This document shows positions 2-29,841 of a stretch of 64,000 nt of DNA, one piece after another. Position 1 is the first letter of the stretch, and each line of letters begins with the position of its first letter. The notes under the pieces were generated by a model, which worked only from the letters and a program-made list of their open reading frames with translations, did not search any database and had not been told where the DNA came from. Source of the DNA: Ruegeria sp. THAF33 (lineage in GTDB: Bacteria; Pseudomonadota; Alphaproteobacteria; Rhodobacterales; Rhodobacteraceae); assembly GCF_009363615.1 (NCBI RefSeq), contig NZ_CP045384.1, positions 556,501 to 620,500 on the forward strand, read 5' to 3'. A program made the translations under genes and the position numbers.

Positions 2-856
2 GCGTACAATTTCGCCTATCTGGACGAACAAACCAAGCGAATGATCCGGCGGGCGATCCTCAAGGGCCTGGCCATACCGGGGTATCAGGTGCCGTTTGCC
101 AGCCGCGAGATGCCGATGCCCTATGGCTGGGGTACCGGGGGCGCACAGGTTTCAGCCGCGACGTTGACGCCCGAGGATACGTTCAAGGTGATCGATCAGG
201 GCGCAGACGACACGACCAACGCCGTATCCATTCGCAAGTTCTTTGAAAACACCGCAGGGGTCGCCACCACGGAAAAGACGGAACAGGCCACAATCATTCA
301 GACCCGCCACCGCATCCCCGAGGCGAAGTTGCGCGAAGACCAGATCATCGTTTATCAGGTGCCGATTCCGGAACCTCTGCGCTTTTTGGAACCGCGCGAG
401 ACCGAGACGCGCAAGATGCACAGTCTTGAGGAATACGGGCTGATGCATGTGAAACTGTACGAGGATATCAGCCAGCACGGGGCGATTTCGACCGCTTATG
501 CCTATCCGGTGAACGTGGCTGGACGCTATGTCATGGACCCGTCCCCAATTCCGAAATTCGACAATCCAAAGCTTGAGATGGACGCGATCCAGCTGTTTGG
601 TGCCGGGCGCGAGCAGCGGATTTACGCGGTGCCTCCGCATACCAAAGTCGTGAGCCTCGATTTCGAGGACTACCCGTTCGAGGCCACCAAGGCCGATCAT
701 CCCTGCGACCTGTGCGGGGCCGAAGACAGCTATCTGGACGAGGTCATCACGGATGACGCGGGCAACCGGATGTTTGTTTGTTCCGACACGGATTACTGCC
801 GGTCACGCCGCGAGGCGGGTTACGAGGATCGATTGGCTGAAGAGAACGCGCAATGA
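2..856 (+). CDS. phnJ: PhnJ, C-P lyase (alpha-D-ribose 1-methylphosphonate 5-phosphate C-P-lyase), 5' partial
   Basis: Radical-SAM enzyme that breaks the carbon-phosphorus bond of ribosyl alkylphosphonate 5-phosphate. The reading frame is open to the left edge and begins inside the family-typical stretch YNFAYLDEQTKRMIRR, so only about five residues are missing compared with E. coli PhnJ. The four conserved cysteines lie near the C-terminus in the spacing C-x2-C-x21-C-x5-C (CDLC, then VCSDTDYC). In the family these hold the 4Fe-4S cluster and supply the catalytic cysteine. The stop overlaps the phnK start as ATGA. phnG, phnH and phnI are expected just outside the window. Identification is very secure from near-continuous similarity along the whole length. 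Confidence 0.97.
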   Translation, partial: AYNFAYLDEQTKRMIRRAILKGLAIPGYQVPFASREMPMPYGWGTGGAQVSAATLTPEDTFKVIDQGADDTTNAVSIRKFFENTAGVATTEKTEQATIIQTRHRIPEAKLREDQIIVYQVPIPEPLRFLEPRETETRKMHSLEEYGLMHVKLYEDISQHGAISTAYAYPVNVAGRYVMDPSPIPKFDNPKLEMDAIQLFGAGREQRIYAVPPHTKVVSLDFEDYPFEATKADHPCDLCGAEDSYLDEVITDDAGNRMFVCSDTDYCRSRREAGYEDRLAEENAQ

Positions 857-1623
857 TCCCTCTGTTGCAAGTCAAAGGCATTGAGAAAAGCTATGGCCGC
901 CGGATCGGCTGTGCGGATGTGAATTTTGATCTCTTCCCCGGAGAAGTGATGGGGATCGTTGGTGAAAGTGGGTCGGGCAAGTCGACCTTGCTCAACTGTA
1001 TGGCCGGCCTTCTGAAGCCGGATGCCGGGCAGGTGATCTTTGATACCCGTGCAGACGGCCCGGTCGATACGGTCACAATGTCCGAGCCAGAGCGCCGGAT
1101 GCTGAGCCGCACCGATTGGGCCTTTGTCCACCAACACGCGCGCGACGGGTTGCGGATGTCTGTCAGCGCCGGAGGCAACATCGGCGAGCGGCTGATGGCT
1201 GTCGGCGGTCGCCACTATGGCAGCATTCGGGGCAAGGCCATTGACTGGCTGGGCCGGGTCGAGATTGACGAGAGCCGCGTCGATGACCGCCCCAGCGCGT
1301 TTTCGGGCGGGATGCAGCAGCGTTTGCAGATCGCGCGCAATCTGGTGACAGGTCCTCGGCTGGTGTTCATGGACGAACCGACCGGTGGTTTGGATGTGTC
1401 GGTACAGGCGCGTTTACTGGATTTGTTGCGTGGACTCGTGCGTGAGATGAGGTTGAGTGCGATCATCGTCACCCATGATCTTGCCGTGGTGCGTCTGCTG
1501 GCGGATCGGTTGATGGTGATGAAAAGCGGTCGCGTGGTCGAGGCCGGGCTGACGGATCAGGTGCTGGACGACCCGCAACATGCCTATACGCAGTTGCTGG
1601 TGTCCAGCGTTTTGCAGGTTTGA
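853..1623 (+). CDS. phnK: PhnK, C-P lyase complex ABC-type ATPase
   Basis: ABC ATPase subunit that docks on the PhnGHIJ core during phosphonate breakdown. It is cytoplasmic and not a transporter component. The 256-residue protein has Walker A GESGSGKST (residues 37-45), signature FSGGMQQRLQIARN, Walker B LVFMDEPTGGLD and the switch histidine in IIVTHDLAVV, so all catalytic motifs are intact. It starts in a 4-base ATGA overlap with phnJ, which points to translational coupling. The family length (about 250) and the position between phnJ and phnL separate it from dipeptide-transporter ATPases, which it resembles. Confidence 0.95.
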   Translation: MIPLLQVKGIEKSYGRRIGCADVNFDLFPGEVMGIVGESGSGKSTLLNCMAGLLKPDAGQVIFDTRADGPVDTVTMSEPERRMLSRTDWAFVHQHARDGLRMSVSAGGNIGERLMAVGGRHYGSIRGKAIDWLGRVEIDESRVDDRPSAFSGGMQQRLQIARNLVTGPRLVFMDEPTGGLDVSVQARLLDLLRGLVREMRLSAIIVTHDLAVVRLLADRLMVMKSGRVVEAGLTDQVLDDPQHAYTQLLVSSVLQV

Positions 1624-1645
1624 GGCTTTGGGGAAAGATGAAGCG

Positions 1646-2329
1646 ATGATTGAACTTGTTGACGTCAGCAAAAGCTTCACCCTGCACAATCAAGGCGGCG
1701 CCACGATCCCGGTGGTTAAAGGCGCGTCTCTGAAAGTGGAGCCGGGTGAGTGCGTCGCCCTGACCGGGCCGTCGGGTGCAGGCAAATCCACGCTGATGCG
1801 TGTGATCTACGGCAACTATCTGGCGGCCACTGGTCAGGTGCTGGTCGCAGGGTTGGACGTGGCCAGGGCTGAACCGCGGCAGATCTTGTTGCTGCGTCGT
1901 GACACCTTGGGCTATGTCAGCCAGTTCCTGCGGGTCGTGCCTCGGGTGTCGGCGTTGGACGTTGTGGCAGAGCCGCTGCTGGCCGTGGGCTGTGACAGGC
2001 AAGTGGCAATGGACAGGGCAGCCGGGTTGCTGAAACGGCTGAATATTCCCGAACGTCTGTGGACCCTCAGCCCGACGACCTTCTCGGGCGGCGAAAAGCA
2101 GAGAGTGAACATTGCGCGGGGCTTTGCGCATGAATATCCGGCAATGCTGTTGGATGAACCGACCGCAAGCCTGGATGCGCAGAACCGGGAAACCGTTTTG
2201 TCCCTGATCGAAGAGGCCAAGAACAATGGCGTGACGATTGTCGGGATTTTTCACGATCTCGACGCGCGCGAACGGGTCTGTGACCGCGAGGTCGATGTCT
2301 CGGACTTCACGCCGGGGATGGCTGCATGA
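1646..2329 (+). CDS. phnL: PhnL, C-P lyase system ABC-type ATPase
   Basis: Second ABC ATPase of the C-P lyase machinery. It is associated with the first step that couples phosphonate to ATP-derived ribose. 227 residues with Walker A GPSGAGKST (41-49), signature FSGGEKQRVNIARG, Walker B AMLLDEPTASLD and H-loop FHDLDARE. An in-frame start lies upstream at 1580 inside phnK. The ATG at 1646 is chosen because it follows a GGGGAAAGA ribosome site and opens with MIELVDVSKSF, typical of the family. Its stop overlaps the phnN start by ATGA. Confidence 0.95.
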   Translation: MIELVDVSKSFTLHNQGGATIPVVKGASLKVEPGECVALTGPSGAGKSTLMRVIYGNYLAATGQVLVAGLDVARAEPRQILLLRRDTLGYVSQFLRVVPRVSALDVVAEPLLAVGCDRQVAMDRAAGLLKRLNIPERLWTLSPTTFSGGEKQRVNIARGFAHEYPAMLLDEPTASLDAQNRETVLSLIEEAKNNGVTIVGIFHDLDARERVCDREVDVSDFTPGMAA

Positions 2330-2874
2330 CGCTTGCTCCGGTCATAGCGGTCGTGGGTCCTTCGGGGGTCGGAAAGGACAGCGTAATGAACGCGCTGGTG
2401 GCCCGGACGCCGGGTGTTCAGAGGCTGCGGCGGGTGATTACCCGTCCCGAAGGCGAAGACGGCGAAGATTTCGACCGCGTCTCGGCCGAAACATTTCAGC
2501 GGATGGAACGGGATGGCGCGTTTGCGCTGAGTTGGCATGCGCATGGGCTGTATTACGGTGTGCCGAAGACGATCACGCGGCAGCGGCAGGTGGCCGAGGC
2601 CGTTTTGGTCAACCTGTCACGAACGGTGTTGCTTGAGGCGCAGGAGGTGTTTGGTGATCTGATCGTGATTTCCCTGACGGCAAAGCCCGAGGTTCTGTCC
2701 GAACGCTTGTCCTTAAGAGGGCGGGAAAGCAAGGCGGAACAGACGCGGCGTCTGGACCGGGCCCAAACGTCTTTGCCCAACGGTTTGAACCAGGTCCTGG
2801 AAATCGACAACTCCGGTGCGATGGAAGATACGGTTGCCGAAATCCTGTCGCACCTTCAACCGGAAAGCCCGTAG
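2326..2874 (+). CDS. phnN: PhnN, ribose 1,5-bisphosphate phosphokinase
   Basis: Kinase that converts ribose 1,5-bisphosphate, the end product of the C-P lyase route, to PRPP for nucleotide synthesis. 182 residues, guanylate-kinase-like, with P-loop GPSGVGKDS at residues 11-19 and the RVITRP substrate-region motif after it. Coupled to phnL by an ATGA overlap. The last 19 bases overlap the 3' end of the convergent DUF1045 gene, so two messages share complementary 3' ends here. Standard length for PhnN. Confidence 0.94.
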   Translation: MTLAPVIAVVGPSGVGKDSVMNALVARTPGVQRLRRVITRPEGEDGEDFDRVSAETFQRMERDGAFALSWHAHGLYYGVPKTITRQRQVAEAVLVNLSRTVLLEAQEVFGDLIVISLTAKPEVLSERLSLRGRESKAEQTRRLDRAQTSLPNGLNQVLEIDNSGAMEDTVAEILSHLQPESP

Positions 2875-3539
2875 CGATGGATAAGGTGGAAGCGCCCGTC
2901 CTCAGCCTCGCCCGCAAGGGCCAGATCCGTGATCTGGAAGGGCTGCGGCAGCAATGGGACCAGACGGGTTTGCAGCGCGTTCCGAGTTGCTCTCAGGGTT
3001 GGTTTGTCCAGCTTGCCGCTCAGCGTGATGTGAAAGCGGAACGCGTCCAGTACGTAAGGATAGCCCCACTGAGCCAGGTTGGCGTCTTGCTCTGGGGTCA
3101 ACCCGGCGGCGCGGCGGCGGGCCAGTTCGGCCCCAGAGGTGGGCGCACGAAAACAGTCCAATTCCCGAACACAGGCCGCGGCAAGCGCATTCAGCGCCTG
3201 GATCTCACCCAGTGGACGCAGGGCCAGAAAACGCCCAAACCGGGCGATCTCCAGGCCATCCAGCGACACAGGTGGTTGGCGGGAGGCGAGCGAGCTGCAC
3301 GCCTCTTGCAGGGCTTCGAATGTTTTGCCGTCGCGCAGTCTGAACGGTGGCTTCAGTGTCGCGTGCAGCCCGTACTTGCGCGGCACCTCCGTGACGGCGG
3401 CAACGTCGATTCCTTCGACAATCGGATGGGCAACCGGCTTTCCCGCCTCGATGTCCCAACCCAGCCAGCTTGTTGCAAATTTCGCCCATTCCTTTCCCGC
3501 GGGCGGCGCAAAATAGATCGCGTATCGCGTGAATGTCAT
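2856..3539 (-). CDS. DUF1045 phosphonate-locus protein (2H phosphoesterase superfamily)
   Basis: 227 residues. Two H-x-T-L motifs are visible, HATL (residues 59-62) and HITL (around 175). This is the signature of the 2H phosphoesterase fold, whose members open 2',3'- or 1'',2''-cyclic phosphates. DUF1045 proteins are known companions of phn operons. A role in hydrolysing 5-phosphoribosyl 1,2-cyclic phosphate, the product of PhnJ, is my inference. The longer frame reaches 3578, but the ATG at 3539 sits behind a clear AGGAGG and begins MTFTRYAIYF. It is convergent with and overlaps phnN, and divergent from phnM. Confidence 0.85.
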   Translation of the reverse strand: MTFTRYAIYFAPPAGKEWAKFATSWLGWDIEAGKPVAHPIVEGIDVAAVTEVPRKYGLHATLKPPFRLRDGKTFEALQEACSSLASRQPPVSLDGLEIARFGRFLALRPLGEIQALNALAAACVRELDCFRAPTSGAELARRRAAGLTPEQDANLAQWGYPYVLDAFRFHITLSGKLDKPTLRATRNALQTRLVPLLPQPFQITDLALAGEAEDGRFHLIHRYGLSG

Positions 3540-3591
3540 ATCGGCCTCCTTTTGCGTGGCCTTCCTCGGTCTCAACATGCGTGAAGTTCAG

Positions 3592-4734
3592 ATGACAGAA
3601 GACTTGATCCTTGCCAATGCCACGCTTGTATTGCCGAACGAAACCGTAACCGGCAGTGTCCGGATAGTGGGTGAGGCCATCGCTGAAATCGACACCGGAA
3701 GCGGGGTTCCCGCGGGCGCGATAGATTGCGAAGGCGACTATGTCAGCCCCGGCCTTGTCGAGTTGCACACGGACAACCTTGAACGTCACATTCAACCGCG
3801 CCCACAGGTGAACTGGCCCCATGCCGCCGCAATTCTTGCGCATGATGCGGAATTGGCCGGCGCCGGGATCACGACAGTGTTCGATGCCATGCGGGTTGGA
3901 TCGATCCCGTCGGGCGCGCGGCGGTATGGGAAATACGCCCGAGGCCTGTCGCAGGAGCTGTGGGATCTGCGCGAACAGGATGCGCTCAAGATCAGCCACT
4001 TTCTGCACTTGCGGGCCGAGGTGTGTTCGGAAACTCTGGTTGAAGAGCTGAGCGAATTTGGAGCGGAAGACAGGGTTGGTATTGTGTCCATAATGGATCA
4101 CACGCCCGGTCAGCGTCAGTTTCGAGATATGGGCAAGCTGGAGACCTTTCTGAAGGGCAAATATGCCATGGATGATGACACGTTCTTTCAGCACGTGGCG
4201 CAATTGAAAGGGCTTCGAGATCGCAATGGCGCACTGCACGAGGTCGAAGCTGTCAAAGCTGCCCGCCGTTTCGGAGCAGTATTGGCCAGCCATGACGACA
4301 CGACTGAAGATCAGGTGAAAGTGTCCGCAGGTCACGGCATCCGTCTGGCCGAGTTCCCCACAACCGTCGAAGCGGCACGCGCCTGCCACAAGAACGACAT
4401 TCGGGTCATGATGGGCGCGCCGAACATAATCCGCGGGGGGTCGCATTCAGGCAATGTTGCTGCCTACGAGCTGGCCCAGCTTGGGTATCTGGACATCCTG
4501 TCTTCGGATTATGTGCCGTCGGCCTTGTTGCTTTCGGCGGTTAGGCTGGGCGAGATCTGGGGCGACATGGCGCGGGGGATGAAGACAGTAACGCTGGCCC
4601 CGGCTCGGGCCGCAGGGTTGGAGGAGCGGGGCGAGTTGCGCGCCGACGCCCGCGCCGATGTCATCCGCTTCCGGATGCGCGCGGGTGTACCCGTCCCGAG
4701 TTCGGTCTGGGTGCGCGGTCGACGCGTGGCGTAA
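3592..4734 (+). CDS. phnM: PhnM, alpha-D-ribose 1-methylphosphonate 5-triphosphate diphosphatase
   Basis: Amidohydrolase-fold enzyme that releases pyrophosphate from the ribosyl-triphosphate phosphonate before C-P cleavage. 380 residues, close to the 378 of E. coli PhnM. The metal-binding segment HTDNLERH lies near residue 60, and later motifs MDHTPGQRQF, HDDTTEDQV and SSDYVPSALL match the family. The ATG at 3592 is chosen over in-frame ATGs at 3529 and 3577 because it gives the family N-terminus (MTEDLILANATLVLP). It is divergent from the DUF1045 gene with only about 50 bases between, so both probably share a control region. Confidence 0.95.
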   Translation: MTEDLILANATLVLPNETVTGSVRIVGEAIAEIDTGSGVPAGAIDCEGDYVSPGLVELHTDNLERHIQPRPQVNWPHAAAILAHDAELAGAGITTVFDAMRVGSIPSGARRYGKYARGLSQELWDLREQDALKISHFLHLRAEVCSETLVEELSEFGAEDRVGIVSIMDHTPGQRQFRDMGKLETFLKGKYAMDDDTFFQHVAQLKGLRDRNGALHEVEAVKAARRFGAVLASHDDTTEDQVKVSAGHGIRLAEFPTTVEAARACHKNDIRVMMGAPNIIRGGSHSGNVAAYELAQLGYLDILSSDYVPSALLLSAVRLGEIWGDMARGMKTVTLAPARAAGLEERGELRADARADVIRFRMRAGVPVPSSVWVRGRRVA

Positions 4735-5211
4735 TCAGGCCGTGTAGAACAGGTAACGGTCCGGGGCGATTGTCTTGGGCCCCTGGATCTGGGCAAAGCC
4801 GACCAGGGGCTGACCTGAAATCAACAACCCTCCGGGCTGCATGACTTTTGCGATCAGCGGGCTGAGACGCTCTGCTTCGGCGACGTCCTCGTGCTTGATG
4901 CCGCGTCCGAAATCGTAATGCGCCAGCGCGATCCTATGCCCGTCGGCCGCCAGTCTGAGCAGCATCGGTTCAGCCTCACCTTGCAGGAAATCCTCGGCCG
5001 GGGGGGTGCTGTCCGGATGGCATTGCAGGACCCGGTCCATCACCCAGATCCGGCGCTCTGGCAGGATTTCACGCAGATGGTCATAGGTGCGGCCATTGCC
5101 CAGGCCCATATCCAGCACATCCCCCGGCTGGCCACTGATCCGCTCGGCCGCCCAGTTCAGTCCGTCACGTTGGGCCGTCAGTCGGCGCAGCATGGAATCC
5201 AATCGGCTCAT
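4735..5211 (-). CDS. Small class I SAM-dependent methyltransferase-like protein (copy 1)
   Basis: 158 residues. The SAM-binding loop appears as DMGLGNGRTYDHL (around residues 34-46), followed by HPDSTPP and a C-terminal PGGLLISGQPL strand region. It is shorter than typical methyltransferases and has no obvious substrate domain. It is the last gene of the glycosyltransferase operon, 10 bases after the deacetylase-like gene. A clear paralogue lies at 21472-21969, sharing SRLD, GLGNGRTY-HL, HPDSTPP, SPLI and PGGL. The methylated substrate is unknown. Confidence 0.8.
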   Translation of the reverse strand: MSRLDSMLRRLTAQRDGLNWAAERISGQPGDVLDMGLGNGRTYDHLREILPERRIWVMDRVLQCHPDSTPPAEDFLQGEAEPMLLRLAADGHRIALAHYDFGRGIKHEDVAEAERLSPLIAKVMQPGGLLISGQPLVGFAQIQGPKTIAPDRYLFYTA

Positions 5212-5221
5212 GGTGATGTCC

Positions 5222-5977
5222 TCATTCGTTCTCTGGCGCGACCCAGGCTGTGGCGGGCCCGCTCAGCAATTTGCGCAACAGGGCCTCGGTAAAGGTCCAG
5301 ATGTCCTGATCATGGACCAGATGATGGGTCAATATGCCGAAGGGCTCGGTGTTGTCTGAACGGCCTTCGCGTCGGTCTCGCAGAAGACCAGCAGTCTGCG
5401 CGATCAGGGCGTCGGGTGAGATCAAGCCACGCGACCCGCGCCAGTCGATCGGATCAAGGTGGGTATTGATCTGCTCAAGCCCCGGTGCGGCCAGACGTGA
5501 TTTGCGGGGCGTTGCGGTGGACAGGATGCGGTATCCCAGCTTTGGCAACTGCTTGGCCATCTCGGGTGCAATGCGATTCCAGGGGGGCACGAACATCTGT
5601 CGCATATTGTCACCAAACACGGACCGAAGACGCGCCATCCCGGCCTGCGCATCCGTCACCATCACGTCCAGCGGACGGTCGAGCCGAAACTCGGCCTTCT
5701 TCTCGCCGCGGGGCGCATGGTTTGTATGCGCCCACCCGTGTACGACCGGAATAAGAGACGCGCGCCCGGCGACGTATTCCGCCAGCGCGGGCGTCGCGTC
5801 GCGTGGAATGACGGCCAGATGCACGGGCAGGCCCAGTTTGTCGGCCAGCTCGGAAAGGCGGTCCAATTGCGGTGTTGGCGCAATGGCATCATCATCGCGC
5901 CACCACACAGGCAAGGGCAAGCTTTCGGCACGCCAATGGTTCAACTCGACGTCAAGTGGGCGCCAGTCGGGGTTCAT
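5222..5977 (-). CDS. Polysaccharide deacetylase-like protein
   Basis: 251 residues with features of the NodB-type deacetylase fold: an early WWRDDDAI stretch (about 24-31) that can supply the catalytic Asp and metal Asp, VHGWAHTNHAP (about 79-89) with the H-x3-H metal histidines, and FVPPWNR (about 126-132) matching the substrate-groove motif. This suggests removal of N-acetyl groups from a sugar. There is no signal peptide, so it would act in the cytoplasm on an intermediate. Start overlaps the stop of the preceding glycosyltransferase by ATGA. Substrate unknown. Confidence 0.8.
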   Translation of the reverse strand: MNPDWRPLDVELNHWRAESLPLPVWWRDDDAIAPTPQLDRLSELADKLGLPVHLAVIPRDATPALAEYVAGRASLIPVVHGWAHTNHAPRGEKKAEFRLDRPLDVMVTDAQAGMARLRSVFGDNMRQMFVPPWNRIAPEMAKQLPKLGYRILSTATPRKSRLAAPGLEQINTHLDPIDWRGSRGLISPDALIAQTAGLLRDRREGRSDNTEPFGILTHHLVHDQDIWTFTEALLRKLLSGPATAWVAPENE

Positions 5978-7116
5978 GTGCGCTGCTCCAGCAGGCGCTT
6001 GGCGATGTGGACGGATTGGATGGCCCCGTCAAAACCGAAATCCTGTTGTACACGGGGGCCGTCGGCCACGACACGCTCCACCGCCCGAGCCAATGTCGCC
6101 CCGCTCAATGCTCTGCTTTCCAGAACTTCGATTGCGGGCAGATCGGACAGGCTTTGCCCGCGCAGCCCTTGTTCCACCTCTTTGCCGTCGTCGAAAGGCA
6201 CAAACACGGCGGGGGTGCCACTTTGAAGGATATCCATGGCAGTGTTGTAGCCGCACATGCTCACTGACGCCGCTGCCAGGGGCAGCATCTGGCGGAAATC
6301 CGGCCGCACAGGTTCCAGAACAACCGAAGCACCTTCGGCCATCCGGGACAATTCCGCGATCCGAGCCTTTGCATCCGTTCCACCGACCAGCAGGCGCCAG
6401 CGCCTGTTGGGCATCTTTCGGGCGGCCTCGATGGCCGCGCGAAAGATCGGTTGCCCGACGGATCCGCCGCCAGCGCTGACCAGGATTTCATCCTGGCCCG
6501 CCGCGTCGGGGTGAGGTTGGGGCAATGCAGGCGCCACAAAGCCGGTGTAGTGAAGTCGCTTGGCCAATCGGTCCGACACCGGCCAGCTGACCGACAGGGG
6601 CGTAACGCTTTCGGTCGAATGAACCAGAATGCCGTTATAATACCGAGACACGATTTCATCCGCGCGCTCGGCCTTGGCGGGTTTGGAGGGCGGAGCCAGA
6701 ATGTCGCGGACCGATCCGAGAATGACGGGACGCTCAGGCAACGCGCTTGCCGCATTCAGGGCCGCATCGAACTCGGCCGACAGTGATCGGCGACCAAAGG
6801 GGTAAAGCTCGGTGATCAGGATCTGCGGCTGGAAGCTGTTCACCGCCTGCACCAGGGCGGCCTCGCGCGTGGCGTGATAGGCCGCGTCAGCCTCGTCGCC
6901 GCTTTCGGTCAGCAAACGGGTGAAGTTGGTTCCGTCTGATCTGAGCGGCGGCAAGCCGAACAGGGTCATGCCCGTGCTGTCCAATTGCGGCGCGGGCACG
7001 CCACCCGTCACGACCATGACGTCGTGGCCATCATCCCGAAAGGCCCGCCCCAATGTCAGCGCCCGGCTGAGATGCCCGGTGCCCAACAGGTGCGTGACGA
7101 TGATCATCACCTTCAT
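5974..7116 (-). CDS. GT-B glycosyltransferase, MurG-like (operon copy 2)
   Basis: 380 residues. The N-terminus MKVMIIVTHLLGTGHLSRAL has the glycine-rich loop of MurG/UGT-type GT-B enzymes. The C-terminal half has VSAGGGSVGQ and CGYNTAMDILQSGTPAVFVPF, the nucleotide-sugar binding region of this clan. It resembles the first gene of the operon (10014-11228), suggesting an old duplication. Overlaps both neighbours by ATGA. Donor sugar and acceptor cannot be read from the sequence. Confidence 0.82.
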   Translation of the reverse strand: MKVMIIVTHLLGTGHLSRALTLGRAFRDDGHDVMVVTGGVPAPQLDSTGMTLFGLPPLRSDGTNFTRLLTESGDEADAAYHATREAALVQAVNSFQPQILITELYPFGRRSLSAEFDAALNAASALPERPVILGSVRDILAPPSKPAKAERADEIVSRYYNGILVHSTESVTPLSVSWPVSDRLAKRLHYTGFVAPALPQPHPDAAGQDEILVSAGGGSVGQPIFRAAIEAARKMPNRRWRLLVGGTDAKARIAELSRMAEGASVVLEPVRPDFRQMLPLAAASVSMCGYNTAMDILQSGTPAVFVPFDDGKEVEQGLRGQSLSDLPAIEVLESRALSGATLARAVERVVADGPRVQQDFGFDGAIQSVHIAKRLLEQRT

Positions 7117-7697
7117 TGCGGGGCCTCGTATTTGATCAGGCGAACGGGGTCGGCGTCGGCGGTCATGGTCTTCATGTCGACGATATACAGCCGATTGCGT
7201 TTGATCTTAAAGGGGGCAGGTCCTTCGAAATTCCAACCCCATGCCCAAGCCAGAATGACCCGCATGATACCGATATGACAGACCGCGACCGTATCTTGCC
7301 GCAGCGCGGACAGCCAGGGGCGAAGCCTGTCCCGAACCTCGGCCGGGCTTTCTCCGTTTGGTGGACGGAAATCCCAGCCCCAATGCTCGATATGACGATA
7401 TCCGCTGGATGCGTCCGCGATCAGGTCGACCCCGCGCTGACCTTCCCAATCGCCCCAGTTCATCTCGGTCAACGCGTCCGCGGTTTTCGGGTCGCGACCG
7501 GTCACGATTTGCGCCGTCTCACTGGCGCGGTGCAGGGGGCTGGACCAGATGTCAGCCTCGGCCCAGTCCTGTGGCAATCCATAGCCCGCCAATTCGGCTC
7601 GGGCGTCATCGTCCAGCGGTATGTCGCTGCGCCCCTGGATTCGTCCCGCTCGGTTCCAATGGGTGTGCCCGTGTCGGAGCAGTGCAAGCCGGGTCAT
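7113..7697 (-). CDS. Histidine phosphatase family protein
   Basis: 194 residues. The catalytic RHG motif is at residues 8-10 (LALLRHGHTHWN) and a second active-site histidine is in VAVCHIGIMR. This is the phosphoglycerate-mutase-like fold that works through a phosphohistidine. In this operon it probably dephosphorylates a sugar or lipid-linked intermediate, which is an inference from context. The frame extends to 7733, but the ATG at 7697 gives the family start and overlaps the upstream stop as ATGA. Confidence 0.85.
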   Translation of the reverse strand: MTRLALLRHGHTHWNRAGRIQGRSDIPLDDDARAELAGYGLPQDWAEADIWSSPLHRASETAQIVTGRDPKTADALTEMNWGDWEGQRGVDLIADASSGYRHIEHWGWDFRPPNGESPAEVRDRLRPWLSALRQDTVAVCHIGIMRVILAWAWGWNFEGPAPFKIKRNRLYIVDMKTMTADADPVRLIKYEAPQ

Positions 7698-8770
7698 GAT
7701 ACGTCCTTCAGCAGGGGTCGGAGGGTTGCCCACAAGCGCTCGGTCGCCTGTGGCATCAGGTGGCGCTCTGCCACGTAGTTGCGTGCCGCAGCGCCCAGAG
7801 TGTGGCGCAGCGTGGAATCCGACAAAAGGGCCTGCATGCCATCCGCAAATCCCCTGGCGCCACTTTCGACGGATGGATAGGCCGCCGGGGACAGAACATC
7901 GCGTACGCCGGGCCGATCCTGAGCAACCACAGGCAATCCCGCAGCCTGCGCCTCGAGGTAAATCATGCCGTAAGCCTCATTCACTCCGGGCCATGCAAGC
8001 AGAGATGATTGTTGATAGACGCGTTGCAGTTCTTCCCGGTCAAGCTGACCCAGAAAACGCACCCGCTGTCCGAACGGCGCCATCAGCGCCTCAACCTGCC
8101 TGCGCGCCGGGCCGTCTCCTGCGATGTTCAGGTGCCAGTCCCCGGTCAAATGCGCCAGGGCCTCGGACAATATCTGATAGGACGCCAGCTTGTCCCCATG
8201 CCGCATCATGCCGACGGTCAGCATGGGTGCGCCACCTGTAGCGGCCGGAGGCAGTTCCGAGATCGGCAGGAACGGAGGCAATTCGACCAAAGCCTGATCG
8301 CCAAAGCGATCCCGCTCCAAAGTGATCAGGTCGTTGGCTGTATGGTAAAAGATCACATCCGCTGCATCGCAGGCCTGATGCGCCGCCTTGGCGAACTCAG
8401 CCCACGGTCCGTTTAACCGACTGGATGCGCGGGTGCTTTCCAGTTGCACATAGGGAATGCCGCGCGCCTTGCAAACCCGAGGGCCCAGCAGGTCAGGTGC
8501 CTTGTAATAATTGTGGTAGGTCACCCACAGATCGGTATCTGATGGCATGTCAGAGACAAGTCGTTTCGCTTCATCTTCTGCCGCGCGCCTCAAGGCTTGT
8601 TGCAGGTCTTCGTCGCCGCTTTTGTCATAGATGCGCAAGTCGGTCGCCAGAGCGACCGTATCACCCTCGGCGGTCAGCGCCTGCATCAGATTCCGGGCCA
8701 TTTCACGGTCGCCCGAAGGTTTCGGGCTGTCAGGAGATTTCATCGGGGCATAAAACGCGACCCGCGCCAT
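7694..8770 (-). CDS. Glycosyltransferase family 4-type protein (operon copy 3)
   Basis: 358 residues, GT-B fold. N-terminus MARVAFYAPMKSPDSPKPSG carries the loop seen in GT4 enzymes, and the C-terminal half has FLGQLDREELQRVYQQSSLLAWPGVNEAYGM followed by EAQAAGLPVVAQ, the E-x7-E donor-phosphate region. The start at 8770 overlaps the stop of the previous gene as TAATG. An in-frame start 18 bases upstream is less likely. Product unknown, part of the seven-gene operon. Confidence 0.85.
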   Translation of the reverse strand: MARVAFYAPMKSPDSPKPSGDREMARNLMQALTAEGDTVALATDLRIYDKSGDEDLQQALRRAAEDEAKRLVSDMPSDTDLWVTYHNYYKAPDLLGPRVCKARGIPYVQLESTRASSRLNGPWAEFAKAAHQACDAADVIFYHTANDLITLERDRFGDQALVELPPFLPISELPPAATGGAPMLTVGMMRHGDKLASYQILSEALAHLTGDWHLNIAGDGPARRQVEALMAPFGQRVRFLGQLDREELQRVYQQSSLLAWPGVNEAYGMIYLEAQAAGLPVVAQDRPGVRDVLSPAAYPSVESGARGFADGMQALLSDSTLRHTLGAAARNYVAERHLMPQATERLWATLRPLLKDVS

Positions 8771-10017
8771 TACGCGTTTTCCATGCACATGGAATTGAGG
8801 CGTTCCGACAGCCGTGCGATGCCGGGGGACATCCGGAACTCGGCGATCAGGCGATCATAGGCCGCATGCGCCATCTGTGACGCTTGCTGCGGATTGGCTG
8901 ACAAACGTTCCACGGCTTCCGCAAGTGCAGAGGGGGCGTCATCGGACAGAACCCCATGTGTTCCGGTTTCGATAAACTCGGGGATCGCCGAGACCGGTGT
9001 CGACAGGATTGGCAACAACTGAGACGCGGCCTCCATCAACACATTCGGCAACCCGTCGCGGTCTCCGTCCTTCGCGATGCGGCTGGGCAGAACGAACAGG
9101 TCGGCATCACGCATCGCTGCGATGACCTCGGGCTGGTCGCAAGCCCCTTTCCAGGTGATCCGGTTCGCAATGCCGGCTGCGTTCGCCTGTGCCCGCAAAA
9201 CGTCACCCAATGCGCCGCCGCCGATATGGGTCCAGTGCCAGTTCAGGTCATCGGGCAGCAATTCAAAGGCCGCGATCAGACGATCGAAGCCTTTTTTCTC
9301 GACCAGCCGCCCGACGGAAATCATGTGAAAAGGGTCATTCACAGTACGCAGCTTTCGCGTCGGAGGCTTGGGAAAGCGAGACAGGTCCAAACCGTGATAG
9401 ATCAGGTCCACGCGCTTGGGGTCATCGGCCAGGCTGCGCAGATGCTCGGCTCCGATGGCTGTGCAGGTGGCGCCAAACGTCGCCCCGTAGGATGCGGCTT
9501 GCAGCTTTTCACGTTTTTCCCAATCCGGCGACGTCCAGATATCCTTGGCATGAGCCGAAAAACTCCACGGCAATCCGCGCATGATGGCGGCGTAACGGGC
9601 AACGGATGACGGCGTGTGCATGAAATGAGCGTACAGCCCTTGCGTCCGGGCTGGCAATTCCGCGGCCAGAACGCAGGCTTGCCCAAACCGGCGGATGCGA
9701 TTGGGCGTCGGGTCGCGCTTCAAGTCCTGACGCCAGATCCGATAGGCCCTGTCGTAACCGGGAAGCGTTTGGGCCAGGGCCCGTGCCGCCCAGACCCGTT
9801 TGGGTTCGTCGTGAAGATACTCGGGCAGGTATCGAACCCGTCCTGTGAACCGGTCGTGCAAGGGATGGCGTTTCGTATCGGTCGGATGCCGCAAAGACCA
9901 GATGTCAAAGCGATGCCCGGCCTCCTGCAAGGCGACAAGTTCCTGCGCAATGAACGTTTCGGACAGTCGTGGCCAGCCTTTGACCACAACCGCCAATCGA
10001 GGAGAATCTGAGGTCAT
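8770..10017 (-). CDS. Glycosyltransferase family 4-type protein (operon copy 4)
   Basis: 415 residues. GT4 features: RLSETFIAQELVALQEAGH near the N-terminus, which is typical of colanic-acid or exopolysaccharide-type glycosyltransferases, then MISVGRLVEKKGFDRLIAAFELL and LPSRIAKDGDRDGLPNVLMEAAS carrying the retaining donor-binding E-x7-E. Overlaps the first operon gene by ATGA and the next by one base. Donor and acceptor unknown. The N-terminal SETF motif suggests transfer to a growing glycan. Confidence 0.87.
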   Translation of the reverse strand: MTSDSPRLAVVVKGWPRLSETFIAQELVALQEAGHRFDIWSLRHPTDTKRHPLHDRFTGRVRYLPEYLHDEPKRVWAARALAQTLPGYDRAYRIWRQDLKRDPTPNRIRRFGQACVLAAELPARTQGLYAHFMHTPSSVARYAAIMRGLPWSFSAHAKDIWTSPDWEKREKLQAASYGATFGATCTAIGAEHLRSLADDPKRVDLIYHGLDLSRFPKPPTRKLRTVNDPFHMISVGRLVEKKGFDRLIAAFELLPDDLNWHWTHIGGGALGDVLRAQANAAGIANRITWKGACDQPEVIAAMRDADLFVLPSRIAKDGDRDGLPNVLMEAASQLLPILSTPVSAIPEFIETGTHGVLSDDAPSALAEAVERLSANPQQASQMAHAAYDRLIAEFRMSPGIARLSERLNSMCMENA

Positions 10018-11228
10018 CCGGTGGCTCGTTCCTGTTCCCAGGTCAGCAGGCTTTCGATGCGGTCGGTGACATAGTCCAGCCCGTCCAGCAATCCGCTTTG
10101 TATCGCCTGCGACGGCAGGGATTGGTGCGGCAATTCCCGAATGGCGCGGATCATCGCCTCTGGCGTCAGGCCATCCCGGTTTTCATCCAGCATTCGGACA
10201 AGGCCCAGCCCTTCTGCGCGCGAGGCCCTTATCCACTGTTCCAGACGGGGCGTGGTGCGCGGGACGATGACAGCGCGTTTGTCAAAGGAAAGAACCTCGC
10301 AGAACGTGTTGTAGCCGCCCATGCAGACGACGCCTTCGGCCCCTGCAAACAGCGTTTCGATCTGGGATTCGAACCCAACGGCGGTGACGCGACCGTTCAA
10401 TGCGGCAACGCGGGTTTCGAAATCTTCGCGCAACTCACCGGACAGGAAGGGGCCATAGACCAAAACCGCCCGCGGCGACAGGTTTGGATCTTTTTCATAG
10501 GCAGACAGGACGAGGTTGACCATCGCCTTGCCGTCGCCGCCGCCGCCGGGCGTGATCAGGATATAGGGTTGTTGCGGAGGCTCACCGACCGGACCAAGAT
10601 CGCGGCGCAGATATCCCGTCCAGTGGATGCGGGACTGTGCCGCGGCGCTCAGCGGCAACCCCTTTGTCGGGTCGTAAATCGACTGCAAACCGTAAACCCA
10701 GATTTCGTGATAAAACCGTTCGGTGGCTTCAACCGCTTCCTTGCGCGCCCACTCGGCGGCCAGGACTTCGGGTTCATCCAGAACATCGCGCAACCCAAGC
10801 ACCATTTTGGTTCCGCAGTTCTGTTGCAGGTGGTTCAGTGTCGGCAGCAGCTCACCCCGGAACCCCGTCGGTTCCTTGTCGACGATCAGCACATCAGGGT
10901 CGAACTGCTGAACAGCGGTTTGAATCAGACCCGACCGCAACTCGGTCACTTCTTCGATGCCCATCCCGATGGTGCGTGCAGCATAAGACCCGTCTGCGCG
11001 TTTGGTGACACCGGGCAGGCGCACGTGGTCAACGCGACGGGGAAAGGTAAACCGTCCGGCCACGGGTGATCCCGTCAGGATCAGCGCAGACGCGCTTTGG
11101 TCCGCCTGCGTGATCGCGGCCGCCAAAGCCCGAGACCGGCGAAGATGGCCCAGCCCGAACGTGTCGTGACTGTAAAACAGGATACGCGGTGCGCGGCCCG
11201 GTTTGGAATTGGTTTTGCCTAGGCTCAT
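10014..11228 (-). CDS. COG4671-type predicted glycosyltransferase, first gene of operon
   Basis: 404 residues. Distinctive PRILFYSHDTFGLGHLRRSRAL near the N-terminus and GGYNTFCEVLSFDKRAVIVPRTTPRLEQWIRA near the C-terminus place it in the predicted GT-B family COG4671, whose members are mostly uncharacterised. The frame extends to 11276. I prefer the ATG at 11228, because a predicted promoter -10 box at 11284-11289 leaves no leader for the longer form. It heads seven coupled genes. Relation to the protein at 5974-7116 is visible in the glycine loop and C-terminal GGYNT/CGYNT motifs. Confidence 0.85.
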   Translation of the reverse strand: MSLGKTNSKPGRAPRILFYSHDTFGLGHLRRSRALAAAITQADQSASALILTGSPVAGRFTFPRRVDHVRLPGVTKRADGSYAARTIGMGIEEVTELRSGLIQTAVQQFDPDVLIVDKEPTGFRGELLPTLNHLQQNCGTKMVLGLRDVLDEPEVLAAEWARKEAVEATERFYHEIWVYGLQSIYDPTKGLPLSAAAQSRIHWTGYLRRDLGPVGEPPQQPYILITPGGGGDGKAMVNLVLSAYEKDPNLSPRAVLVYGPFLSGELREDFETRVAALNGRVTAVGFESQIETLFAGAEGVVCMGGYNTFCEVLSFDKRAVIVPRTTPRLEQWIRASRAEGLGLVRMLDENRDGLTPEAMIRAIRELPHQSLPSQAIQSGLLDGLDYVTDRIESLLTWEQERATG

Positions 11229-11283
11229 AGTGTTGCCTGTCTTCTTGATCCCGGTTCGAAATCCGCGCGTTTGCAAGCGTTAC

Positions 11284-11602: not shown

Positions 11603-13990
11603 ATGCAAAACCCCATGAAACATACCTTTCTGGCCGCAACACTTCTGGCTTTGTGGGCTTTTGTACTGGCGCTTCCGGTCAGCGTTTCAGCGCAAACATC
11701 CTTGATTCCGGGATACAACGCGGACAGTTCGTCTGCGTCCTCGCCGGAAAGCGATCTGGCTGCCGCAATTCGCGCCGCCAGCGAAGCCGGGGCCAGTGTG
11801 ATTGTCATCGACAGCGCCGGGCAGGTTGTGACAACGGCAGGCGGCACGGATGCGGGCACGAATGATGCGGCGGGCGATTCGAACAATCCCATGGGTGAGG
11901 GATCGCAGCTGATGAAGGCGCAGGAGCGGTTCTCGAAATTCCGTGAGTCCATGCAATCGCGGCTTGAGGCGCTGCCGTATTCGGTGTTCGAAGTAAAGTA
12001 TATCCTGCGCCAGACCAGTCCGGACGGTCGCATTCAGACCTATGTGGAAGTTCTGGGCTGGAACATCCTGTTCCTGTTGTTGGGGCGCTGGCTGTCTATC
12101 GAGATATACGGGAAACGCATCGCGCGCCGCTGGGTCGTGGCGCGGATCAAGGATGAACCGCAGGGTTACCGAGAAAAGATGCCCTTCCTTCTGTTCCGGT
12201 TCCTGATGGGGATCGGAGCGACGATCTTTGCCATGCTCATGGCCCTGATCGTCGGATATCTGTTTTTTGGCGAAGCGGACGATATCTCGATCCAGTTCAC
12301 GGTCACGGCGATCTTCACGGCGTTCTTCCTGTCGCGCACGGTGTCCGATCTTTGGCGGATGGTATTGTCACCTTACCTGAGCCAATATCGGCTGCCACCG
12401 TTCTCGGACCGGGACGCCAAGCGGCTGTATCTGTGGGCTTCGGCACTCGCGACCTATGACATCACGGTTGTCCTGTTTTCGACCTGGGTTGCGGATTTCG
12501 GGCTGAACTACAACGTCTACGCCATGGTCTATGGCTGCCTTACAATGGTGGGCGCTTTCGGCAATATTCTGATGATCCTGTTCAATGCCCGGGCCATTTC
12601 AAATGCCATCCGGGGCGGAAGAGCGCCGGATCAGGTCTCGTGGTTGTTGCGGTTCGTATCCTTCGGCTGGGCACCTGCACTGATCGTCTATGTCGTGTTC
12701 AGCTGGTTCCGTCTGGCGGTTGATCTTGCACTGGAGAACCCAACGCCGCTGCCGCTGATCGCAAGCAGCTATATGATCTTCATGTCCGTCGTCGTTGCCT
12801 ATGGTGCGATGAACTACGTGCTGGAGCGGTATTTTGACCGTTCGCGCAAGATCAACGAGATAAACGAAGAAACCGCCGCTGCCGAAGCGGATGCCGAGCC
12901 CGTGGAAACGCCCGAGGCAGAACAGCGCAAACAGTATCTTCTGACCTATGAGGATCTGGCGCGCCGGGTGGCCGGAATTCTGGCCTTTGTGATTGGTGTC
13001 TATGCCCTTGTGGTGATTTGGTATCCCGATGCGGACTGGAGCGAGGACCTGCCAGTTGCACGCGTGCTGGATGTAATGGTCATCATTTTCATCGGCTACA
13101 TCCTGTTTCATTTCTTTCGCATCTGGATCGACAGCAAGATAGCGGAAGAAGTAGATGATGGCACCGAGGCCGAACTGGGCGATGAGGGCGGGGAAGGCGG
13201 GCAAAGCCGGCTGGCGACGCTGCTGCCATTGTTCCGCGGCGCAATTCTGGCCGTTGTGGTCGTGACCATCATGCTGATCGTTCTCATGGAACTTGGTATC
13301 AATGTCAGCCCGCTGTTTGCCGGTGCCGGTGTGGTTGGCCTGGCTGTCGGTTTCGGATCTCAAACACTGGTGCGAGACATCTTTTCCGGGGCGTTTTTCC
13401 TGATGGATGATGCCTTTCGGAAGGGTGAGTACATCGATATCGGAGACGTCAAGGGAACGGTCGAGAAGATCTCGGTCCGGTCCTTCCAGCTGCGTCACCA
13501 TCTTGGTGCGCTGAACACGATTCCTTTTGGCGAAATCAAGGTTCTGACGAACTATTCCCGTGACTGGGTGATCATGAAACTGCCGCTGCGCGTGACCTAT
13601 GACACTGACGTGGAAAAGGTGCGAAAGCTGATCAAGAAGCTGGGGCAGGAGTTGCTGAGCGATCCTGTGATCGGCGAAAACTTCATACAGCCGCTGAAGT
13701 CCCAAGGCGTGATCGAGATGCAGGATTCAGCGATGATCATCCGGGTCAAGTTCATGACCAAACCGGGCGATCAGTGGCTGGTGCGCAAGAAGGTCTATCA
13801 GGAAATTCGCGAATTGTTCGCGCGGGAAGGCATCAAATTCGCGCATCGCGAAGTCACCGTGAGGTTGGCAGACGGCAAAGAGGCCGATGACCTGACGCCG
13901 AAACAGCGTGAGGCGGTAACAGGCGCGGTGCAGGCCGCGATCGATGAGGACTACCTGGACGATATCGGCCCTGGGGGCGATGATCGATAG
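11603..13990 (+). CDS. Large MscS-family mechanosensitive channel
   Basis: 795 residues, much larger than E. coli MscS (286) and closer to the MscK/YbiO-type class. A signal peptide (MKHTFLAATLLALWAFVLALPVSVSA region) leads into a periplasmic stretch, then about ten hydrophobic helices from residue 150 on. The conserved pore and beta domain follow at about 560-700: LFAGAGVVGLAVGFGSQTLVRD, IFSGAFFLMDD, YIDIGDVKGTVEKI. It acts in the inner membrane as a safety valve at osmotic downshock. Start may be 11603 or 11615 (second ATG). Divergent from the glycosyltransferase operon. Confidence 0.92.
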   Translation: MQNPMKHTFLAATLLALWAFVLALPVSVSAQTSLIPGYNADSSSASSPESDLAAAIRAASEAGASVIVIDSAGQVVTTAGGTDAGTNDAAGDSNNPMGEGSQLMKAQERFSKFRESMQSRLEALPYSVFEVKYILRQTSPDGRIQTYVEVLGWNILFLLLGRWLSIEIYGKRIARRWVVARIKDEPQGYREKMPFLLFRFLMGIGATIFAMLMALIVGYLFFGEADDISIQFTVTAIFTAFFLSRTVSDLWRMVLSPYLSQYRLPPFSDRDAKRLYLWASALATYDITVVLFSTWVADFGLNYNVYAMVYGCLTMVGAFGNILMILFNARAISNAIRGGRAPDQVSWLLRFVSFGWAPALIVYVVFSWFRLAVDLALENPTPLPLIASSYMIFMSVVVAYGAMNYVLERYFDRSRKINEINEETAAAEADAEPVETPEAEQRKQYLLTYEDLARRVAGILAFVIGVYALVVIWYPDADWSEDLPVARVLDVMVIIFIGYILFHFFRIWIDSKIAEEVDDGTEAELGDEGGEGGQSRLATLLPLFRGAILAVVVVTIMLIVLMELGINVSPLFAGAGVVGLAVGFGSQTLVRDIFSGAFFLMDDAFRKGEYIDIGDVKGTVEKISVRSFQLRHHLGALNTIPFGEIKVLTNYSRDWVIMKLPLRVTYDTDVEKVRKLIKKLGQELLSDPVIGENFIQPLKSQGVIEMQDSAMIIRVKFMTKPGDQWLVRKKVYQEIRELFAREGIKFAHREVTVRLADGKEADDLTPKQREAVTGAVQAAIDEDYLDDIGPGGDDR

Positions 13991-14013: not shown

Positions 14014-15369
14014 TCAGTTGGCGTCGAGCGGCCAGACAGGTTCCGAACTGCCCAGTTTCGACGCAGGCAAATCCCAGCGCATCGTCGCTTCGCCGACCCT
14101 CAGCGCAGGGTTGAGGCGATGGCCCGGCCCCCAGCCGGACACCTCCGTCGCCGTGCCGTAATCCGTTGTTGCCGGGGTGATGGGCGCGGATTGTGCTTCG
14201 TCTTTGCCGAGCACGGCCAGAAGTTCGGCGGTGCGCGCCAGAGAGAGATGCGCGTGCATGATGGAATTGCCTGATGCGGCCTCGGCCAGTGCGGACAGGA
14301 CGGCAGCCGCCATCAGATAGCCGGTCGCGTGGTCCAGAGCTTGAACCGGCAACGGGGTCGGCTTGTCCGCGTTCGCCCACTCCATCCCGGCATGGGCGAT
14401 ACCCGCGCTCATCTGGACAAGGCTGTCAAACCCGCGCCGGGTCGACCATGGACCTTGCCAGCCATAGGCATCCAGCGTGACTTCGATCCGGTTCGGAGCC
14501 AGCTCGTCACGTTTGGCCCGGGTCAGACCCAGTGCCTCCAGCGCGCCGGGTCGATACCCGTGTACGAACACATCCGCCTGAGCCAGCAACCCATGCAATC
14601 GTTCAAGGCCGGTTTCGGATTTCAAATCAAGATAGGCGCAGCGCTTTCCCAGCGATATGTCGGGGATCACCCCCGGTTCATCCCAGCCAGGTGGGTCGAT
14701 GCGCAAGACCTCGGCTCCGAACCCTGCAAGCGTTCGGGTAGAAACCGGGCCGGCCAGAACGCGCGTCAGATCCAGCACCCGTAACCCGGCCAGAGGCCGA
14801 TCAGCGGTGGCCCGAGGTCTGTCGCGCAGATTGACATAGCGCGGTCCCTGCCATCCGATCAAAGGGTCGCGCGACACGGCGCGGCCTTGTGGGTGATCAA
14901 GCCATTCCGCCCGGCTGCGCATGGCAGCGGCCACCCCACCTTCGGCAACAACCGCCGTTTCCAGATCCGATATCGCCCACGACCTGACGGCTTTTGCCAC
15001 GGCTTCACGCTCTGGCCGGGTGCCAAGGACTTTCAACGCGGCAGAGCGATGGCGGGGCAGGTTTGTGTGCAGCCTGATCCAGCCATCAGCGGCTTTGTAG
15101 TCGCCCGCGACCGCATCCCACAAACTGGGCATGTCCCAACCTTCCGGTTTGAAGGAATAGCCGAACCACAGAGATGCCAGCCGATGATCGATCGAGACTT
15201 CGGGTGCGTTCGTGGACAGGTTGATCGCCTGGATCAGCCGGGCCATTTCCCGCCCCACGGCTGCGAAACTGGCGGTGGCCAATTCGGAAACGGCAAAGGC
15301 GCTTGGCAGAACACCGGCACCGACCCTGTGATAGCTGCCGGCAGCGGGAAGCGTGGCAAGAAGACTCAT
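14014..15369 (-). CDS. CaiB/BaiF (family III) CoA-transferase
   Basis: 451 residues. The typical family core LAGLRVLDLTRVLAGPVSTRTLAGFGAEVLRIDPP begins around residue 193, with an N-terminal extension of nearly 200 residues that looks like a diverged half (family proteins can be two-domain). The Asp nucleophile region follows in the core. Family members move CoA between carboxylic acids. It is the last gene of the peptide-type transporter operon, its start overlapping the permease stop by ATGA, so it may activate the imported compound. Substrate unknown. Confidence 0.87.
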   Translation of the reverse strand: MSLLATLPAAGSYHRVGAGVLPSAFAVSELATASFAAVGREMARLIQAINLSTNAPEVSIDHRLASLWFGYSFKPEGWDMPSLWDAVAGDYKAADGWIRLHTNLPRHRSAALKVLGTRPEREAVAKAVRSWAISDLETAVVAEGGVAAAMRSRAEWLDHPQGRAVSRDPLIGWQGPRYVNLRDRPRATADRPLAGLRVLDLTRVLAGPVSTRTLAGFGAEVLRIDPPGWDEPGVIPDISLGKRCAYLDLKSETGLERLHGLLAQADVFVHGYRPGALEALGLTRAKRDELAPNRIEVTLDAYGWQGPWSTRRGFDSLVQMSAGIAHAGMEWANADKPTPLPVQALDHATGYLMAAAVLSALAEAASGNSIMHAHLSLARTAELLAVLGKDEAQSAPITPATTDYGTATEVSGWGPGHRLNPALRVGEATMRWDLPASKLGSSEPVWPLDAN

Positions 15370-17545: not shown

Positions 17546-17559
17546 TTAGCTGCTCCTGC

Positions 17560-21238: not shown

Positions 21239-21471
21239 GCGGGTTTTCCACCCGTTTGACCGTTCGATGACATCGGTTACTTCAACTCCCCGTGATTTTT
21301 TGTTCAGTGTCGCGCGGTTCCGCCCGTCTAGTCAAACCCGTTCTTGGGCCGAAATGTCGCGAAATCGTGAAACTATGGGCTTCGTCGCTACACAAAGTCT
21401 TGAGATTTTGCCATCAAGGACGGCATCGGGCGCATTTATGCTCTCGATTGCTATCAAGGAGATATTTTCCG

Positions 21472-28654: not shown

Positions 28655-28710
28655 TCGCGTTTCGCAAACGGTCTATGTCGTGTGTGGCTGTCAACAAGCC
28701 CGGCCCTGAC

Positions 28711-29448: not shown

Positions 29449-29841
29449 TCAGGCGGCGGCGAAAGTAACCCAGGCCCAAACCATCGCAACATAAGTTAGG
29501 TTGTGCATCAACTGATCCAAACCTGCAGCGCGCCAAAAAGCGGGTTGCGTTGGCTCAAGTCGTTTTTTGTCTGAATAGCTGGCCTTGATGAAATCGATAT
29601 TGAAATGGATGAACCATTCCAGCGCCCCGACAATCAGAATAAAAGACAACGGCGCGCCGAACACCAAAAAAACGACGACAGAACCCACAACATGCACAGC
29701 GGCATGTTGCGCGCGTCCCAAGTGAAAATACTCACCCCGACCGGAAAGCATCTTCGGTGTCTGGAGGTAGTAGTCAGCGAACATATGCTTGATCAGCAAA
29801 AGACAAAGCATAAGAAACACTGCGCCAATACTGGCAGTCAA
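29449..29841 (-). CDS. DUF3307 membrane protein
   Basis: 130 residues, about four hydrophobic helices. N-terminal LCLLLIKHMFADYYLQTPKML, with the conserved H-x2-A-D-Y-Q-like stretch, and a central EWFIHFNIDFIKASYSDKK match the DUF3307 family, small inner-membrane proteins of unknown function. Convergent with the preceding gene (6 bases apart) and divergent from the large ABC-like gene. The upstream region between them holds two dyads. Confidence 0.8.
   Translation of the reverse strand: MTASIGAVFLMLCLLLIKHMFADYYLQTPKMLSGRGEYFHLGRAQHAAVHVVGSVVVFLVFGAPLSFILIVGALEWFIHFNIDFIKASYSDKKRLEPTQPAFWRAAGLDQLMHNLTYVAMVWAWVTFAAA

Follow-up and report, generated by a model that had tools for sequence, protein, structure and literature searches.

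The window analysed here is a stretch of 64,000 nucleotides from Ruegeria sp. THAF33 (contig NZ_CP045384.1, positions 556,501 to 620,500), in which seven genes at 4735-11228, designated A to G, form an operon that is read here, with moderate confidence, as the part of a conserved alphaproteobacterial envelope-glycan system that assembles the sugars in the cytoplasm, and as what corresponds in Roseobacter to the Sinorhizobium meliloti cluster for the surface polysaccharide PPP (Travin et al., 2023, PMC10128002). The operon belongs to an old and widespread gene set of Alphaproteobacteria, keeps its gene content and order across relatives, is co-inherited with an importer and an exporter-like protein, and has homologues on pSymB of S. 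meliloti; it probably builds a protective sugar coating. An uncharacterised Roseobacter operon is thereby linked to a rhizobial envelope polymer that is defined genetically and undefined chemically, and the phenotype expected on loss of the operon is a loss of protection against antimicrobial peptides.

Operon layout and enzyme set

The operon consists of the following genes:
10014-11228, minus strand: A, GT-B glycosyltransferase with a GT28 C-terminal domain (Pfam Glyco_tran_28_C)
8770-10017, minus strand: B, GT4 glycosyltransferase (Pfam Glycos_transf_1)
7694-8770, minus strand: C, GT4 glycosyltransferase (Pfam Glycos_transf_1)
7113-7697, minus strand: D, histidine phosphatase, branch 1 (His_Phos_1, PF00300, 128.9 bits)
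5974-7116, minus strand: E, second GT28-type glycosyltransferase (Pfam Glyco_tran_28_C)
5222-5977, minus strand: F, cytoplasmic CE4/NodB-type deacetylase, activity predicted (modelled fold)
4735-5211, minus strand: G, small S-adenosylmethionine methyltransferase (Methyltransf_17, PF12692, 240.8 bits)

The coordinates and junctions of the coupled seven-gene unit described in the original prediction were reproduced, with all genes on one strand, four junctions overlapping by ATGA (A/B, C/D, D/E, and E/F), one by TAATG (B/C), and a gap of 10 bases separating F from G. The start of A was taken as the ATG at the 11228 end, the longest version returned by the open reading frame (ORF) caller opening with TTG at 11276. 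A simple hydropathy scan of A to G detected no transmembrane or signal-like stretch.

The nearest NCBIfam models for B are EpsE and WcaL, both under the cut-off, and both B and C weakly match the MshA and BshA models; two glutamates of C in E-x7-E spacing are invariant across nine sequences. The gene product of G is related to the solved structure 3iht (E 1.1e-22). The deacetylase F has no Pfam or NCBIfam match, and a sequence search of solved structures with F gave no relatives up to E 1; its structure model adopts a predicted CE4/NodB fold and keeps the conserved Asp and His residues of CE4 (NodB) deacetylases, presumably the CE4 motif, and among the 120 relatives listed for F, one carries PF10096 (DUF2334). 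In another Rhodobacteraceae genome, a second F-like deacetylase was seen by eye adjoining an acetyltransferase-looking protein within a ribosomal-protein region (L110:6709-8354).

Judged from their sequences, the seven enzymes would be able to assemble a short glycan, remove an N-acetyl group from it, and methylate it, which agrees with the build, trim, and cap set described originally, except that the naming of D as a phosphohistidine phosphatase was unsupported. A SixA-like label is too specific for D, which can be assigned as a branch-1 histidine phosphatase with R8, H9, G10, R57, E78, and H141 invariant across seven sequences. Its nearest NCBIfam model is alpha-ribazole phosphatase (91 bits vs. 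a cut-off of 163), and the solved glucosyl-3-phosphoglycerate phosphatase 4pz9 (E 1.6e-08) is one among 36 matches.

Conservation of the operon and its putative transport partners

A scan with B as query yielded 150 loci. The best 80 of them, from Ruegeria and other Rhodobacteraceae and leaning to near relatives, are referred to as the named loci. The complete A to G set occurs in 77 of these 80; two of the three incomplete loci are short contigs, and the third (L096) has no detected G. The unit stays together in relatives, and the scattering that had been named beforehand as grounds for refutation was not seen. The predicted junctions of the named loci are -4 for A/B in 66/80, for C/D in 73/78, for D/E in 59/78, and for E/F in 62/78; B/C is predicted as -1 in 40/78 and as -4 in 12/78, and F/G as -4 in 34/77, with varied spacing in the remainder. 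Pairwise distances between gene families within A to G correlate at r 0.84-0.95, which adds little, because the distances of the neighbouring MscS gene to those of A to G also correlate at 0.61-0.88.

In a class sample of 240 Alphaproteobacteria (thresholds of E up to 1e-30 for A and up to 1e-20 for F), the lead gene A was detected in about a third of the genomes (78/240, a count which leaves out the weaker second rows of the already counted genomes G176 and G344 and includes two weak matches, G328 and G189), F in 70/240, and both in 68/240 against 22.8 expected. The two genes lie on one contig and one strand within 13 kb in 52 of these 68 genomes; 14 of the others have them on different contigs and two far apart on one contig, and F without A was found in two genomes. 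Ten plasmid records labelled Escherichia in a plasmid collection also match A at less than 60 percent identity.

To compare the wider neighbourhood, genes were clustered from 40 stretches picked by hand in the class sample, including some that are one half of a split locus, and from seven further stretches. Among the 40 stretches, the exporter-like protein occurs in 26, a binding protein in 27, a separate cyclic-nucleotide-binding (cNMP) protein in 18, and a G-like gene in 10. Outside Rhodobacteraceae, the usual order starts on one side with a G-like gene, the cNMP protein, and the exporter-like protein and continues with A to F, often a small protein without a Pfam match, and then a double ATPase, a binding protein of family 5, and two permeases. 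For example, a plasmid of Azospirillum lipoferum 4B holds a single run of G, an exporter with a fused cNMP domain, four importer genes, and A to F, and a related set is found on Rhizobium and Sinorhizobium plasmids. In a Mesorhizobium cluster (L229:1834-9664), several adenylate/guanylate cyclase genes lie nearby, in keeping with cyclic-nucleotide control. The original prediction had noted no flippase with the operon; a set standing without transport genes is not supported, as relatives place the importer and exporter-like protein in the same run, and both are encoded elsewhere in the window. The importer, a peptide-type ATP-binding cassette (ABC) system at 15366-21238, is separate from the operon and comprises four genes:
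15366-16520, minus strand: importer permease, OppC-like, with a homologue upstream of A in 72/80 named loci
16517-17545, minus strand: importer permease, found as an ORF, with a homologous permease beside the operon in relatives
17560-19473, minus strand: importer substrate-binding protein, SBP_bac_5
19466-21238, minus strand: importer double ATPase, with two ABC_tran stretches

Both partners closely track the operon in Rhodobacteraceae, the one family counted. Among 120 Rhodobacteraceae genomes, F is present in 24, the binding protein (E up to 1e-100) in 26, and the exporter (E up to 1e-100) in 24; F occurs together with the binding protein in 23 of the 24 F-positive genomes (5.2 expected) and with the exporter in 22 (4.8 expected), mismatches being few and kinship among the genomes making the P values of co-occurrence too small. 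All three genomes with the binding protein and without F carry A, and the one F-positive genome without a binding-protein match (G119) is an assembly that is 78 percent complete.

A genome search with the class-wide protein as query identified the exporter-like gene of the window (36 percent identity, E 1.6e-168), which may in fact start about 20 codons downstream of the position given here:
29972-33052, plus strand: ABC-exporter-like protein with a degenerate nucleotide-binding domain and a C-terminal cyclic-nucleotide-binding domain (Pfam)
29449-29841, minus strand: DUF3307 gene (Pfam), adjoining the exporter-like gene in Rhodobacteraceae, its link to the system uncertain

The ABC transmembrane domain PF00664 is recognised in the exporter-like protein at E 4e-15, and the class-wide protein has matches under the cut-off to models of MsbA, the glucan exporter, and PglK. 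The Walker A motif GxxGxGK[ST] was absent from all 52 aligned exporter-like rows, which count the window protein twice and follow the removal of four of 56 rows as wrong-strand ORFs, six loci having given no row. Where the motif would end, a lysine followed by D, E, or Q is present in 15 of 26 class sequences, and the lysine too is absent from most Rhodobacteraceae rows; by comparison, a normal exporter of the same genome used as a control (L221) has GPSGAGKT, and a second control locus (L220) yielded no exporter ORF. Variation also affects the signature, the Walker B motif, and the H-loop, but some class members, L190 for example, keep all three and may still use ATP. An insert of about 260 residues in the nucleotide-binding domain often interrupts matches to solved exporters, which stop near 505 and start again near 770. 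Within it, an element of the type YNxxASVxENLLFG is repeated; of three copies compared by profile, copies 2 and 3 match with a probability of 98.3 (E 1.9e-14), copies 1 and 2 with 92.1 (E 6.1e-07), and copies 1 and 3 with 47.9 (E 1.9e-04). A strict phosphate-binding-cassette pattern for cyclic nucleotides fits 9 of 18 separate cNMP proteins, whose binding of cyclic nucleotides is predicted.

Of the 18 Rhodobacteraceae loci with the nearer exporter type (L234-L251), 17 have the DUF3307 gene, which was rejected as a class-wide partner after no match was found in the wider stretches compared. Similarly, the ORF at 28675-29442 was rejected as a partner, having been found only in the window's own locus among 30 exporter loci of about 6 kb each; it encodes a protein of 255 amino acids without a Pfam match and is perhaps a strain-specific insertion.

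The probable Sinorhizobium counterpart and competing readings

Although the original prediction knew of no described product for the seven genes, the Sinorhizobium counterpart has a mutant phenotype in Travin et al. (2023, PMC10128002), where nine S. meliloti genes between smb21252 and smb21271 are needed for PPP. In the same study, the phazolicin minimal inhibitory concentration falls from 1.47 to 0.18 µg/ml in smb21252 and smb21265 mutants, both genes being termed glycosyltransferases, PPP protects against phazolicin, and the authors read the sensitivity of the mutants as a barrier defect. Seven of the nine PPP genes are reported to be upregulated during Myxococcus attack (PMC10315480). The gene order on pSymB in strain ml47 is GT4, MscS, C-like, F-like, metallo-hydrolase, DUF3095, nucleotide-sugar dehydrogenase, adenylate cyclase, polysaccharide lyase, importer, A, B, E, methyltransferase, exporter, and cNMP protein, where the genes for the binding protein and the exporter have no entry in the ml47 gene table and were identified as ORFs of strain 1021, and the methyltransferase after E has no BLAST match to G. 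Identity to the window proteins is 42 percent for A, 50 for B, 40 for C, 34 for E, and 37 for F. The best match of S. meliloti C in the window genome is C (E 2.0e-65, the next being 3.6e-13), and that of S. meliloti E is E (E 2.8e-58), with A second (4.6e-31). Counting with the binding protein included, C would be the counterpart of smb21252 and E that of smb21265, because the genes named in PMC5498481 keep their expected order in ml47, with no slack over 21240-21249, and the counting continues from there. The match of two gene names gives good support for the correspondence with PPP, the gene numbers themselves being inferred.

A different and unlikely reading is that the operon makes a small soluble glycoside for secretion, which the linked importer then retrieves as it would a metallophore or a signal. 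The importer is of the SBP_bac_5 type and is linked as tightly as the exporter; the combination of GT4 enzymes, a phosphatase, and a deacetylase recalls two-step glycoside pathways, of which mycothiol is an example, as do the weak matches of B and C to MshA and BshA. No priming transferase, Wzx-like flippase, or Wzy polymerase was recognised among the ORFs of window positions 1-21238, no genome-wide or model search having been made for them, and this too fits a soluble product. Against such a product, the polysaccharide lyase beside the Sinorhizobium importer fits a larger glycan, and the S. meliloti mutants are sensitive to an antimicrobial peptide, which PMC10128002 takes as a barrier defect.

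Less likely again, the operon would be an ordinary step of lipopolysaccharide (LPS) core, O-antigen, or capsule synthesis and no separate system, as might be suggested by the resemblance of B to EpsE and WcaL and by a TviB-like nucleotide-sugar dehydrogenase that lies between MscS and A in 14 of the 80 named loci. Typical O-antigen loci are not known to keep gene content and order across families, whereas this set does, and importer and exporter-like genes co-occur with the operon. The dehydrogenase, directly upstream of A in those relatives, also runs counter to the original statement that no sugar-nucleotide gene belongs to the set, although the window genome is without one. In one locus, a 127-amino-acid ORF upstream of A resembled by eye a remnant of the TviB-like dehydrogenase (L112:4117-4500), which suggests that the gene was lost in that lineage.

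Two further explanations, both very improbable, derive from the flanking genes. The C-P lyase genes phnJ, phnK, phnL, phnN, DUF1045, and phnM at 41-4734 end against the operon, arranged as they are in the annotation of Ruegeria sp. TM1040, and hint at a phosphate-starvation glycolipid route, but phnM is the downstream neighbour in only 43/80 named loci, so that the link is not general, and nothing clustered with phnM in the 40 class stretches, where one L188 ATPase grouped with phnL/phnK. On the other side, the divergent neighbour of A is a channel gene with a putative role in the system:
11603-13990, plus strand: MscS-type mechanosensitive channel (Pfam)

MscS is divergent upstream of A in 79/80 named loci and lies near C in S. 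meliloti, and together with the match of D to 4pz9 it recalls a compatible solute that the cell would produce in its cytoplasm in response to osmotic stress. Such a solute should not require as many as four glycosyltransferases plus a deacetylase, and nothing clustered with MscS in the 40 class stretches, where a loose relative might be missed. Anti-phage defence was rejected, there being no PADLOC match at 1e-10.

Several observations weigh against the operon being the assembly line of an envelope-glycan system with these partners. The lead gene A occurs without F in 10 of the 78 A-positive class genomes, an Agrobacterium pusense plasmid has an A-like gene with none of the others within 12 kb as annotated, and the neighbourhood clustering used a crude ORF picker on hand-picked stretches. 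In the window genome, 24 kb separate the exporter-like gene from the operon, and a second copy of the gene is on contig C2; F and the exporter share a contig at a distance of up to 40 kb in only 9 of the 22 Rhodobacteraceae genomes with both, two genomes (G003 and G054) have the operon with only short exporter matches, which argues against a fixed need, and active export by the exporter-like protein is doubtful in view of its degenerate ATPase motifs. No TviB-like dehydrogenase above 26 percent identity was found in the window genome, and none with the operon. As regards S. meliloti, no match to D or G was found among the genes called in the stretch, the smb numbers come from counting along ml47, the strain 1021 record being without a gene table, and for two of the numbers from 21232 to 21240 the ml47 table lists no gene. 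In addition, the term polysaccharide for PPP is the proposal of the authors of PMC10128002 and does not stem from an analysed structure.

Proposed mechanism and comparison with known systems

In the envelope-glycan system favoured here, A, B, C, and E would sequentially add sugars to a carrier or small acceptor, with at least one sugar being an N-acetylhexosamine or its uronic acid. The deacetylase F would take off the N-acetyl group before export, in the manner of ArnD, which trims a lipid-linked amino sugar, while D may clear phosphate left from an earlier step and G may methylate the product. The exporter-like protein, under cyclic-nucleotide control, would then pass, or help to pass, the product across the inner membrane, the product would be located in or on the envelope and act as a barrier, and the importer would retrieve its fragments. 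Hexosamine and uronic acid units are suggested by the TviB-like dehydrogenases of relatives, the S. meliloti dehydrogenase, and the polysaccharide lyase (PF14099) beside the importer in Sinorhizobium, lyases of this family presumably preferring uronic acids.

Transport is the least certain step, as the putative partner is exporter-like by its membrane domain and unlike an exporter by its ATPase site, which raises the question of how an ABC protein without a normal ATPase site could take part in transport. A tentative proposal is that a descendant of an ABC exporter, deficient in ATP hydrolysis, carrying a repeated insert, and opened by cyclic nucleotides, moves the glycan while the linked importer recycles its fragments across Alphaproteobacteria. 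A cyclic-nucleotide-gated system for glycan transport and turnover is not described as such in the papers searched, and no description of the A to G set as a whole was found in the literature searched, which subscription papers mostly lie outside.

Among known systems, the PPP cluster shares with the window homologues of A, B, C, E, and F, the four importer genes, exporter-like and cNMP proteins, and the MscS neighbour. Its nucleotide-sugar dehydrogenase, which may not be a defining feature of the cluster, has a TviB-like equivalent in 14/80 relatives of the window, although the S. meliloti protein matches UDP-ManNAc dehydrogenase more closely than the TviB models. The PPP cluster differs in its additional adenylate cyclase, DUF3095, polysaccharide lyase, and metallo-hydrolase genes, in the separation of C and F from the other three genes A, B, and E, and in its separate cNMP protein, whereas the window system has two further enzymes, D and G, and places the importer and the exporter-like protein with its cNMP domain near the operon and outside it. 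The deacetylase F is similar to ArnD and other CE4 deacetylases in its predicted fold and conserved Asp and His, and shares 15 percent identity with ArnD over 207 residues. The importer has the binding protein, two permeases, and double ATPase of SBP_bac_5 peptide importers such as YejABEF, and differs in being linked to glycosyltransferases. Similarly, the exporter-like protein has the ABC_membrane domain of the ABCB-type lipid and glycan exporters MsbA, PglK, and ChvA/NdvA, and is set apart from them by a nucleotide-binding domain without the Walker A GK[ST], by the repeat insert of about 260 residues, and by a cNMP domain or partner.

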